Origin: a virus
DNA: 32,861 nt
Direction: 5' to 3' (one strand)
Virus record (IMG/VR): IMGVR_UViG_3300032053_003696
Location: 1 to 32,861 of that record
In this document: one piece after another, positions 5,157 through 9,726 of the stretch
Position numbering within the stretch: position 1 is the first letter of the stretch
Layout: every line of letters begins with the position of its first letter
Translations under genes and position numbers: made by a program
The notes under the pieces: generated by a model
Told to the model about the DNA's origin: nothing
Seen by the model: only the letters and a program-made list of their open reading frames with translations
Databases searched by the model: none

Positions 5157-5336
5157 CTACGCGCCCTGCGGACCCTGCGCGCCCTGCGCGCCCTGCGCGC
5201 CCTGCGCGCCCTGCGCGCCTTGCGCGCCTTGCGCGCCTTGCGACCCAGTCGCGCCCTGAGCGCCCTGGATTCCCGAGATCACTTCCAGCCGGTCAGCAAT
5301 CCGAGTCAGTTGCTTCTGTAGTTCTTGCGGATCCAT
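5157..5336 (-). CDS. Small collagen-like virion protein (59 residues)
   Basis: ATG 5336 with GGAGG six bases upstream and a TAG at 5159-5157 give 59 residues. Residues 1-22 ([20 protein letters not shown]) form a probable short coiled coil suited to trimerisation; residues 25-59 are about 12 Gly-x-y triplets, mostly Gly-Ala-Gln with one Gly-Ala-Thr. The composition matches the collagen stalk of the large fibre encoded just upstream. It has its own promoter-like sequence at 5357-5385. It may be a decoration fibre or a partner that nucleates the large fibre's triple helix. The apparent long plus-strand frames over this site are only the antisense of the triplet repeat. Confidence 0.75.
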
Positions 5337-5385: not shown

Positions 5386-6723
5386 TCAGAACAACGACCC
5401 CATTGGGCGATACCCGGAACCAAGCCGAACCATGTGCGCTTCGACATAAGGCAGGTTGTTCGCCTCGTGCCACTCGCTCGGATACCAGTTCACCGATTTC
5501 AGAAGCTGAAACTGACCGGCGAATCGAATGTAGGCCATGAAGCGCGGGTCGCAGTAGTACCGCCACGACAGGTGGTTCCAGAACGAAACATGCGTCGGGT
5601 CACAGTGCGCGCCCGCACCGGCCTTGCCGGTTGGCCCGATAGTGCTCGGCACCGAGATCATCAGGAACCCGCCAGGAGCCAGCACGCGAAACGCCTCGCT
5701 CATCGTATGCACGGGATCGCGTAGGTGCTCCACCGCGTCATACGCCCGAATGATTCCGACGCTCTCATCCGGCAACGCCCATTCCCCGTTGAGATCGCAG
5801 CACACGCCGCCAGCGGCCCCGACCGCCGGGTCAGAGTCCAGCGCCAGGTAGCCAGGTGGGCACCCATGCGCGCCGCATAGGTCAACCGATAGCAGGCTAC
5901 GGTCGCGAGCGAACTTCTCACCGAGCGAGAAAATGTTGCGATTGTAGACGATGGCCGTCGCCTCTTGGATCTCGGCGTTCTTCCTGCTCGTCGTGTTCGA
6001 AGCGTCGCCGCGCACGCGGTAGGCATACAGACACTCGGGGATCTGGTGGAACTTCGCGCCCGAGAGAAACAGCCGCACCATCAGGTCATGGTCGTCGCCG
6101 ACAGCCATGCACTCGTCGTGACCGCCGACAGCGGCATAAGCCGACATCCTCCACGCCCTCAAGTGATCAGGCGACCACTCCACGCGCCGGATGTTCTGGT
6201 GCGTCACTGGTGGCGCGTGTTGCGCCAGCAACTCCATCCCACGGTAAGACACCGGGTACGGATCTTCCCAACCGTAGAGCTTGCCGAACGGGTACTCGCC
6301 CCAACTCGACTCGTGGGAGCCGTCGAGGTTGTCGCGCCAGTAGGCGCAGTCGCTAGAAACGAAGTCAGCGCCAGCATCGAACGCAGCCAGCACACGCTCA
6401 ATCGCACGCGGAAACAGTTCGTCGTCGTCGTCTAGCTCCAGCACATACTCGGTGCCTGCCGCCATCGAGAGCGCCGCCTTGTATTGACCGATTTGACCGC
6501 GCACCGGGAACAGCGCCTGAGAGTAGGGGATCGCCCGCACGCGGTCGTCCGCAAGCAACTCGGGAGGCAGATCCACATTCATCGAAGTGACGGCGATCAG
6601 CCAGCGCCAGTTCTGCACCGTTTGCTTACGCAGCGACCAGTACGCATCCACCAGATATCGAGCCGACGCCGCATGTGTCGGCGTGATGACTGTGATGCGC
6701 GCAGCCGCTTGCTGTTCTTTCAT
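5386..6723 (-). CDS. Glycosyltransferase family 2 - methyltransferase fusion
   Basis: 445 residues from ATG 6723, which overlaps the fibre stop by ATGA. Residues 8-245 are a GT-A fold glycosyltransferase: ITVITPTH at 10-17, an acidic LELDDDDE stretch at 95-102 for nucleotide-sugar and metal binding, and [10 protein letters not shown] at 209-218 in the catalytic-base region. Residues about 275-445 look like a class I SAM methyltransferase of the Methyltransf_11 type, with [10 protein letters not shown] at 328-337 and [16 protein letters not shown] at 345-360. The usual glycine-rich SAM loop is not clear ([11 protein letters not shown] at 281-291 sits in its place). Coupling to the fibre gene suggests that it modifies the fibre, perhaps adding sugars to Gly-Ala-Thr triplets and methylating them; that target is inference. 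Confidence 0.85.
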
Positions 6724-8312
6724 GCGTACTCGTAAATGATCCACACGCCCGCCGTGCCCGCACCGCCTGCGCGGTTTGCGTTGCCTGCGTCGGTAGCGTT
6801 CGCCCCGCCACCGCCTGCACCGTCGCCGGTGCCCGCGTTGCCGACTGCAGAGCTATTGTAGATCGCCTGCCCGCCGCTTCCGAGCGGTGAGCTTCCGCCT
6901 GCGCCGCTGTGCTGCTGGCTCGCTGAGTCGCGTGAGCCTGATTCGCCGGGACCGTTGCCTTGGGTGCTTAGGTTCGCATTGCTCGTGCCGGTGCCAGCGG
7001 ATCCACCTACTGCAAAGGCTGAAAAGGATGCGGCAGCCATCGAGGCACCACCGCCGCCTCCCGCCGCCGTGAGCGTGGCTGAAAGCGCGAGCGTCGATGA
7101 ACCACCAGCCGAGCCCGCGTTGTTTCCCGCAGTGCCACCCGCGCCCGCCGCGCCGTAGGTAGCCGTATATGGCCCCGCTCCGATGCCGGTCTCTCGGTGC
7201 GTGATGTACTGACCAGCGCCGCCGCCACCGCCGACGCCTTGCGTGCCTACGCCTTGTTCGCCACCGCCACCGCCACCGCCACCGCCGATCCCATACACGA
7301 TGATAGATGCGGTGCCAGACGTCGGCGTGTAGTTGCCAGACGTCTTGCGCTGCACTCCGATCAAGCGTCCGGTGGCGCTGCCCTGAGCGCCCTGAGTACC
7401 CTGCGCGCCTTGAACGCCTTGAGTACCCTGTGAACCTTGCGCGCCTTGTGCGCCCTGCGCACCCGTAGCGCCTTGAGCGCCGGTTGCGCCCTGAGCGCCC
7501 TGAGCGCCAGTCGCACCCTGCGCACCCGTAGCGCCTTGGAATCCTTGAGTGCCCTGAGCGCCGGTAGCGCCTTGGAATCCTTGAGTGCCCTGAGCGCCGG
7601 TAGCGCCTTGGAATCCTTGAGTGCCCTGAGCGCCGGTAGCGCCTTGCGAGCCAGTCGCGCCCTGTGCACCAGTCGCACCCTGTGCACCCTGCGCACCGAC
7701 AGCGCCTTGCGCGCCTTGCGCGCCTTGCGACCCGGTTGCGCCGACATCGCCCTGCGGACCTTGAGCGCCGACTACGCCCTGCGCACCCTGCGCACCAGTC
7801 GCGCCTTGTGAGCCGGTTGCGCCTTGCGCGCCGGTTGCACCTTGCGCGCCCTGAGCGCCGGTTGCACCTTGCGCGCCCTGAGCGCCGGTTGCACCTTGCG
7901 CGCCCTGAGCGCCCTGAGCGCCGACGTCACCTTGCGCGCCCGTCGCACCCTGCGCGCCTTGAAAACCCTGAGTGCCCTGATTGCCCTGAGTGCCCTGAAA
8001 ACCCTGAACACCCTGCGCGCCGACCGCGCCCTGAAACCCTTGAGTGCCCTGTGACCCTTGCGCGCCGACAGATCCCTGCGAGCCGACAGCACCTTGAGCG
8101 CCCTGAGCGCCGACAGCGCCCTGCGCGCCGACAGCGCCCTGAAAACCCTGCGCGCCCTGTGCGCCCTGCGCGCCTTGCGCGCCTTGTGGACCGGATGGAA
8201 GTCCCGTTTTGATTCCGCCGCGCCCGCCGTTCAGCGTCGGGTCGTAGAGAATTGTCCCATTGGCGTCGTCAAGGACTTCCGAGAGAAACGGTCTGCCGTT
8301 TGGATCCGGCAT
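6720..8312 (-). CDS. Collagen-like tail fibre with glycine-rich tip domain
   Basis: 530 residues from ATG 8312 (TGATG junction with the previous gene). Residues 1-40 form a non-repetitive attachment segment. Residues 41 to about 312 are roughly 90 uninterrupted Gly-x-y triplets, dominated by Gly-Ala-Gln, Gly-Ala-Thr, Gly-Phe-Gln and Gly-Val-Gln, predicted to form a trimeric collagen-like stalk. Residues 315-530 are a glycine/serine-rich domain with long Gly runs and a C-terminal VWIIYEYA strand, as in phage fibre tips that pack polyglycine helices and bind receptors. Proline is almost absent from the stalk, so stability may depend on glutamine and threonine or on glycosylation by the coupled downstream enzyme. 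Confidence 0.85.
7380..8192 (-). repeat. Collagen-type triplet coding repeat
   Basis: About 810 bases made of nine-base units coding Gly-x-y triplets (GGC GC- CA- pattern on the minus strand). Larger duplicated blocks are also visible, for example three successive copies of the unit coding [12 protein letters not shown] near 7535-7640 and three coding GAQGAQGAT near 7850-7915. Such arrays change length readily by recombination. The long frames on the opposite strand arise only from this repeat. Confidence 0.9.
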
Positions 8313-9088
8313 CAGGGATCCCGCAATATGAACAGGCCGTCGGAGTTGCGCGCAATCGGCAGGTCGTCGGAGTCGCGCATGATGGCGTCAAACGGTATAA
8401 CAACGACGATCCGAATGCCAGTAGCGTCACCCTCGGTGACTATCAGGCGCACGCGAGGATCGAGCGGAACAGCACATCGCAGTTGCAGAACATCGACCTC
8501 GCAACGCACGACGCAAAGCGCACGCCGCTCGCGCCCGTACACTGTTTCGGGCGTGTCGATGCGCTCGTACTCGAGCAGCGTGGCGCGCACGGGAGCGCGG
8601 AAATACCCCGCCTCGCCTTCCAGCAGGACGCCAGCGTATCCCTCGCCAGGGTTGAACAGCGATGGCAAGCGAGCCAGCATCGCTTCCCGAGTTGGATCGT
8701 CGGTCGCCCACAGATCGACCTGAAACGATACGACCGCCTCGCCTGTTTTCCAGACCACAGTGTCGTCGCCGTACACATGCCAAGTGTGCTCAAGCGGTGT
8801 CGGTGTAAGCGCGTGCGCCTCATACGGGATCTCGTCTATCTCGATGATGCTGGCGCTCGGGTAGTCGATGCTGAACTTCGGGTCAGGCCACCAGGGTTCG
8901 ACGCGCTCCAAAGCGAAGTCCTCGTCCGCTACAAGCCCGCCCCCGCGCCGGAACGTCGCGCACCGTAGGAACGTCGCCAGCGCATCGGCCATCGCGTTGC
9001 GCGGGTCCAGGGTGCCGATCCTGGCAATGGGATAGGTGTCTGGTCCGACTACAACGTCGAGCGCGGTGCCTGGTGCGAGATGAGTCAC
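8312..9088 (-). CDS. Tail-associated protein, tandem paralogue B (function unknown)
   Basis: 258 residues from GTG 9088, coupled to the previous gene by GTGA. It is a clear paralogue of the gene at 9085-9726: shared blocks include [41 protein letters not shown] and [15 protein letters not shown] at matching positions. It has about 40 extra C-terminal residues ([20 protein letters not shown]) that the paralogue lacks. It lies between neck proteins and the fibre, so it may be a baseplate or fibre-adaptor component. I do not recognise the family. Confidence 0.65.
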
Positions 9089-9726
9089 GGCTGCACCACC
9101 GTCAGGCGCACCCTCGGATCGAGCGGAACCGCGCACCTTAGCTGCAGCACGTCAATTTCGCATCGCACCGTGCAAGCGAGGTTGCGTTCGCGACCGTACA
9201 CCGACTCGGGCGTGTCCACGCGCCTGTTTCCGACCAGCGTTGCCCTTACGGGAGCGCCGAAATACCTCGGATGCCCCGCCAGTCGGACTCCCACATAGCC
9301 TTCGCCGGGGTTGAACAGGGACGGCACCCGCGCAGCGATAGCTTCCCTGGTCGGGTCGTCGGTACACCAGAAGTCCAGCCGGAACGCGATCACCGCCTCG
9401 CCGGTTTTCCAAACCACCGTGTCGTCGCCGTACACATGCCAAGTGTGCTCAAGCGCCACCGGAACGAAGTTCTGCGGCTCGTAGGGTATTTTCTCGCCAT
9501 CGATAACGCTGGCGCTCGGATACGCGATTCCGCGCTTTGGATCAGGCCACCAGGGTTCGACGCGCTCCAAAGCGAACGGCTCGTCGTTCGCGGTGCCGCC
9601 GCCGCGTCGGAACTGAGCGCACCGCAGGTAAGCGACGAGCACTTCAGCCGCCGCATTGCGCGGGTCGAGTGTCCCGATCGCCGCCAGTGGGAACGTGTCC
9701 GACCCGACGACCGTGCGCAGCGTCAC
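9085..9726 (-). CDS. Tail-associated protein, tandem paralogue A (function unknown)
   Basis: 213 residues from GTG 9726, overlapping the stop of the small basic gene by GTGA. It is about as long as the conserved core of the next gene and shares most of its sequence: TLDPRNA near the N-terminus, the WWPDPK motif, [29 protein letters not shown] and [13 protein letters not shown]. No membrane segment or catalytic motif stands out. Two related copies side by side suggest a hetero-oligomer or two attachment points for fibres. Confidence 0.65.
   Translation of the reverse strand: MTLRTVVGSDTFPLAAIGTLDPRNAAAEVLVAYLRCAQFRRGGGTANDEPFALERVEPWWPDPKRGIAYPSASVIDGEKIPYEPQNFVPVALEHTWHVYGDDTVVWKTGEAVIAFRLDFWCTDDPTREAIAARVPSLFNPGEGYVGVRLAGHPRYFGAPVRATLVGNRRVDTPESVYGRERNLACTVRCEIDVLQLRCAVPLDPRVRLTVVQP

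Follow-up and report, generated by a model that had tools for sequence, protein, structure and literature searches.

We analysed a virus record of IMG/VR, IMGVR_UViG_3300032053_003696 (positions 1 to 32,861; this whole stretch of 32,861 nucleotides is called the window), and in it two overlapping genes, one for a collagen-like tail fibre and one for a putative enzyme that may modify it. Both lie on the minus strand, within a structural region of myovirus type that also carries terminase, portal, head, sheath-like and tape-measure genes on that strand. The fibre gene (6720-8312, 530 residues) has matches to Pfam Collagen and Gly_rich_2 and to tail fibres in PHROG. The gene that follows (5386-6723, 445 residues, ATG start at 6723) encodes a fusion of a glycosyltransferase-2 (GT) and a class I methyltransferase (MT), denoted as GT-MT. 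Stop and start codons overlap as ATGA at 6720-6723, and an in-frame GTG lies upstream of the ATG, at 6744. The stalk of the fibre (residues 41-313, 7374-8192, minus strand) consists of 91 Gly-X-Y triplets without interruption, and Pfam Collagen (PF01391) matches the fibre with 84.8 bits (E 3.5e-24). By this long run the fibre is a collagen-like protein, with a predicted triple helix. An earlier note on this DNA had described the ATGA overlap, about 90 triplets and almost no proline, all of which hold (proline occupies 2 of the 91 X positions and no Y position). Its many Gly-Ala-Thr triplets are present as 16 GAT, but GAQ is commoner (39/91), with GTQ at 8, and the Y positions are held by Gln in 65 of 91 cases (71%) and by Thr in 16 (18%). 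Neither a GPT triplet nor a Lys at X or Y occurs among the 91 triplets. The glycine-rich C-terminal domain (Gly_rich_2, PF21722; residues 326-523, 6744-7337, minus strand; E 4.4e-7) is likely the receptor-facing tip.

In GT-MT, residues 1-270 (5914-6723, minus strand) form a GT-A glycosyltransferase domain according to Pfam (Glycos_transf_2, PF00535; 37.8 bits against a cut-off of 23.3, E 2.3e-9), Foldseek and VIA-align, and residues 275-445 (5389-5901, minus strand) a class I S-adenosylmethionine (SAM) methyltransferase domain (Methyltransf_11, PF08241; 28.5 bits against 21.2, E 2.4e-6). Since both domains score above the curated cut-offs, the fusion named in the earlier note is confirmed. 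We aligned 63 diverse homologues in order to locate the conserved residues. D98, D100 and D101 of the DXD-type metal/nucleotide-sugar motif (D98-D101 as numbered from the ATG at 6723; 6421-6432, minus strand) are invariant, with position 99 usually His, and so are H187 and, in the acidic catalytic-base region, D211. In the methyltransferase domain D296, which is the acidic residue after strand 2, E332 and P376 are invariant, the SAM-binding loop D281-L-(G/C)-G is mostly kept, and the DPTH motif (residues 375-378, 5590-5601, minus strand) is near-invariant. One viral relative, L227:7001-9298 (IMGVR_UViG_3300028840_003924), has a large in-frame intein-like insert with a weak LAGLIDADG_3 match; it sits inside the conserved QDPTH/FWN motif of the MT domain, at the DPTH site, which suggests that this motif is functionally critical.

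The AlphaFold2 model of GT-MT is a confident one with two domains (pLDDT 93.7, pTM 0.93). Among the folds matched by its GT part, in a comparison that covers Foldseek-ranked PDB folds, are chondroitin polymerase (Foldseek E 1.9e-12, VIA-align Z 22.5), SpsA, WrtF, the putative glycosyltransferase GalT1 (CgT) and polypeptide GalNAc-transferases. A Che8 glycosyltransferase is among the best viral structural matches. Sequence searches with the MT part returned generic class I or type 11 methyltransferases only. By the features tested GT-MT is a GT2/GT-A enzyme joined to a class I methyltransferase, and its activity is predicted.

In order to assess the relationship between this enzyme and collagen, we searched viral contigs and bacterial genomes by iterated alignments and obtained 238 GT-MT loci of full length, picking relatives by similarity of the enzyme and not by their neighbours. 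Clustering at 80% identity gave 114 clusters. An open reading frame (ORF) was counted here as collagen-like if it had at least 12 triplets, and such an ORF lay within 1 kb in 54 of the 114 clusters and within 7 kb in 69. As a control from the same loci, 116 of 1116 other genes were within 1 kb of a collagen ORF (p 2.4e-20). The two genes were at most 30 bp apart on the same strand in 26 clusters, with the collagen gene first in 12 and the enzyme first in 14. As a further control, related glycosyltransferases without the MT domain had a collagen-like neighbour in 0 of 13 phage loci; on four contigs of such GT-only controls, one had several collagen matches and one a single weak match. Pairing is spread over the main branches of the GT-MT tree and was seen in six bacterial phyla (Pseudomonadota, Bacteroidota, Actinomycetota, Chloroflexota, Planctomycetota and Myxococcota). 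The cultured Synechococcus phage S-CRM01 has a full-length homologue (33% identity), and collagen-like genes elsewhere in its genome.

The coupling of enzyme and fibre proposed in the earlier note is thus strongly supported, since homologues stand next to collagen-like genes time and again, in bacteria as well as in unrelated phages. The note had named as evidence against it that homologues lie consistently in phages without collagen-like fibres; this was checked, and the pairing survived, with collagen within 1 kb in 54 clusters. The proposal of a phage modification system stands for divergent phages but is too narrow, as chromosomal members occur in Streptomyces, Micromonospora, Frankia and Bacteroidota, among others. 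GT-MT is a widespread and apparently undescribed enzyme family beside Gly-X-Gln collagen genes in unrelated phages and bacteria; we found no paper on the family or its collagen pairing in the open-access literature, with subscription journals and bioRxiv outside the scope of the search.

We then turned to bacterial genomes that were not selected for the enzyme. GT-MT is present in 13 of 150 Streptomyces genomes, and 12 of the 13 loci have a collagen ORF (at least 15 triplets) within about 6 kb, compared to 0 of 20 random 20-kb stretches drawn from the same genomes (p 4e-8). In Micromonospora it is found in 11 of 61 genomes, at 12 loci, all of which have a collagen ORF within about 1 kb upstream (12/12 versus 0/16 random stretches). 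For both genera together, none of the 36 random 20-kb stretches has a collagen-like gene. Genome-wide counting of PF01391 in Streptomyces was dropped, as it was noisy in GC-rich DNA and missed known neighbouring collagens, and the loci were read directly instead. The gene is rare in the Bacteroidota and Pseudomonadota samples: one newly drawn Bacteroidota genome has it, with a collagen ORF ending just upstream, and no new Pseudomonadota genome does. Linked proteins of a Micromonospora and of an acidimicrobial and a Halothiobacillaceae metagenome-assembled genome begin with a signal-like segment, and therefore look like exported proteins and not phage fibres.

The linked stalks (n=54) are of Gly-X-Gln type, with Gln at a mean of 61% of Y positions and Thr, the second commonest, at 16%. 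In published tables of bacterial collagens Thr is the main Y residue, at 31.6-48.3% (PMC8968730). We sampled viral contigs by six consecutive Gly-X-Gln (n=50) or six consecutive Gly-X-Thr triplets (n=50). The enzyme family was present in 7 of the 50 Gln-stalk contigs (four fusions and three GT-only forms) and in 0 of the 50 Thr-stalk contigs (p 0.012). These values bear on the explanation that GT-MT, in the manner known from BclA, glycosylates Y-threonines in the stalk and methylates the sugar, which was essentially the proposal of the earlier note. The 16 GAT and 8 GTQ triplets of the window stalk, the second rank of Thr in linked stalks and the documented glycosylation of BclA (PMC8968730) speak for it. 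However, six of the 54 linked stalks are without Y-Thr, among them one with 92 triplets in phage L038 and one with 118 triplets in Mucilaginibacter L141, linked Gln stalks show no significant excess of Y-Thr over unlinked ones (p 0.09), and the family is missing from all of the Gly-X-Thr contigs. We regard this explanation as conceivable but rather unlikely, and the BclA-like part of the note was not upheld.

Unlike in unlinked Gln stalks, the X position of linked ones holds Ala, Ser or Asn, and Ile is missing, a difference to which base composition may contribute. The conserved Gln together with a small X residue points to a putative G-(A/S/N)-Q recognition element, whether Gln itself is modified or not. 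The acceptor could be Thr, Ser, Asn or Gln, and Gln at Y may be conserved only for its fit to a triple helix without hydroxyproline. It would be a bold and quite improbable step to suppose that G-(small)-Q triplets are what the family recognises and that the Gln side chain itself is modified, giving a Gln-linked sugar or methylated glutamine. We know of no precedent for modification of a collagen Gln side chain; if this were true, Gln would play the role that hydroxyproline and hydroxylysine have in animal collagens.

Relatives with the GT but without the MT domain were also seen in viral loci with Gly-X-Gln fibres (L448:6511-7287, L465:3934-4749, L481:9225-10019 and L390:1847-3700), and in L448 and L465 they adjoin the fibre gene. 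The central role of the family may therefore be glycosylation, with methylation as an extra step. A Peribacillus plasmid (L616; NZ_CP133765.1 63422-80144) has a GT-only relative flanked by a collagen gene on either side. One of these is related to BclB (167 triplets) and the other has Gln at 256 of its 286 Y positions, an arrangement that connects the family with collagens of spore-surface type. This cluster holds two giant Gly-X-Gln collagen genes, the GT relative, other glycosyltransferases, galU and a UDP-sugar dehydrogenase, and from its gene content it looks like a collagen glycosylation island.

The explanation that we favour, and consider reasonably probable, is that GT-MT is a dedicated modifier of the co-encoded collagen-like fibre stalk, to which it would add a sugar that the fused domain methylates. 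The fibre mRNA would also yield the enzyme, by translational coupling. With a nucleotide sugar of the host as donor, the GT-A domain would then glycosylate residues of the Gly-X-Gln stalk, on the nascent chain and probably before the triple helix forms, with one sugar per accepted site. The fused methyltransferase would methylate, and so cap, that sugar; methylation of the protein is less likely. The result would be a decorated low-proline stalk that could be stabilised, hydrated or shielded. We infer this mechanism of sugar followed by methyl cap from the domain order, from the exclusive link to stalks and because no membrane or export parts were recognised in GT-MT.

Several observations weigh against this explanation. 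The acceptor class of the MT domain is not discernible from homology. Of the Gln-stalk viral contigs, many of which are fragments, 43 of 50 are without the enzyme family, and modification is therefore not needed for Gly-X-Gln stalks. In addition, a large-phage clade has GT-MT in a nucleotide-metabolism region with collagen absent nearby; the three longest records of this clade have collagen elsewhere, and four of its contigs of 33-48 kb show none. Contigs of at least 130 kb with a non-adjacent GT-MT have collagen elsewhere in 8 of 8 cases, which is weak evidence because collagen may be common in such large phages; a PhoH-anchored control for large T4-like phages returned mostly fragments. As to gene order in this clade, members L198, L206, L207, L208 and L210 (about 5.5-8.3 kb) have GT-MT upstream of a ribonucleotide-reductase-like gene and preceded by a conserved ORF of about 110-125 residues, and several also have an ORF of about 359 residues.

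The target may also be the fibre tip or another non-stalk part, in which case GT-MT would vary host recognition. The gene lies within the fibre cassette, and the tip of a phage fibre is its receptor-facing part. However, in a domain scan of ten linked proteins the collagen repeat was common to all, and what accompanies it varied (Kelch, CBM_5_12, or nothing recognised in several), so that the stalk alone is shared, and the linked proteins from bacteria do not represent phage fibres; we therefore consider a tip substrate improbable. It is very unlikely that GT-MT modifies the host surface (lipopolysaccharide or capsule) for superinfection exclusion and stands near fibres by chance in a host-interaction island, for although phage glycosyltransferases are often so interpreted (PMC7029224) and its nearest matches in the PDB are glycosyltransferases of polysaccharides, this leaves unexplained both the chromosomal pairing with exported-looking collagen proteins in Streptomyces and Micromonospora and the restriction to Gln-type stalks.

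A dedicated stalk modifier can be compared to known systems. In the exosporium BclA/BclB of Bacillus a bacterial collagen-like stalk is likewise glycosylated, and the Peribacillus GT-only relative adjoins a BclB-related gene. BclA carries O-methylated sugars; it has GPT-rich repeats with sugars on Thr, and its GT and MT are separate genes. In the window the GT and MT domains are fused and the stalk is of GAQ type without GPT, and with GAQ at 39 and GAT at 16 of 91 triplets it is not a BclA-type system with a GPT-rich Thr acceptor. Mimivirus L230, as cited in PMC8968730, is a virus-encoded bifunctional collagen lysyl hydroxylase/glycosyltransferase that acts on the virus's own collagen. It resembles GT-MT as a bifunctional viral enzyme with a GT domain and its own collagen as substrate, but L230 hydroxylates and glycosylates Lys, whereas the window stalk is without Lys and the second domain is a methyltransferase; Pfam found no lysyl hydroxylase domain in GT-MT, which sets it apart from the L230 type. 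By defining features the window system is thus neither BclA-type nor L230-type, and it may work like them. A mycobacteriophage glycosyltransferase of the Che8 group has been proposed to modify the phage's own virion proteins, with a capsid protein as proposed substrate (PMC11256854). It is similar as a phage-encoded virion glycosyltransferase and, as noted above, a structural match, but differs in the capsid substrate and in having no noted collagen-stalk link or MT fusion. EPclA and EPclB, collagen fibres of Escherichia coli O157:H7 prophages, are tail-associated stalks as in the window (PMC3368898). Their triplets, however, are rich in Pro and charge (GPK, GPQ, GER), the recombinant protein is stable and unglycosylated, and no partner enzyme is reported (PMC3368898). 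Judged from sequence, GT-MT would be a variant among the enzymes that glycosylate microbial or viral collagens, its activity being predicted.

Near the pair lies a mini collagen-like ORF overlooked in the earlier note (5157-5336, minus strand, 59 residues; Pfam Collagen E 3.5e-7), with a GGAGG ribosome site upstream. It stands directly after the enzyme gene, between GT-MT and the sheath-like gene, and has about 12 GAQ-type triplets behind a short N-terminal segment; it is a possible second substrate of GT-MT. Directly upstream of the fibre gene, tandem minus-strand genes at 8312-9136 and 9085-9726 are 70% identical over 210 residues and represent a duplication; neither has a Pfam or PHROG match. 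Pfam recognised no sugar-nucleotide gene among the other window ORFs scanned.

To our knowledge, only a few prokaryotic collagens are known to be modified after translation. The pairing across phages and bacteria points to a dedicated chemical decoration of microbial collagens. If this is true, it would account for fibre-linked phage glycosyltransferases that are usually annotated as modifiers of host lipopolysaccharide, and would provide a compact, genetically encoded means to decorate recombinant low-proline collagens. The prediction of a modified stalk also applies to cultivable Streptomyces and Micromonospora and to the isolated phage S-CRM01.
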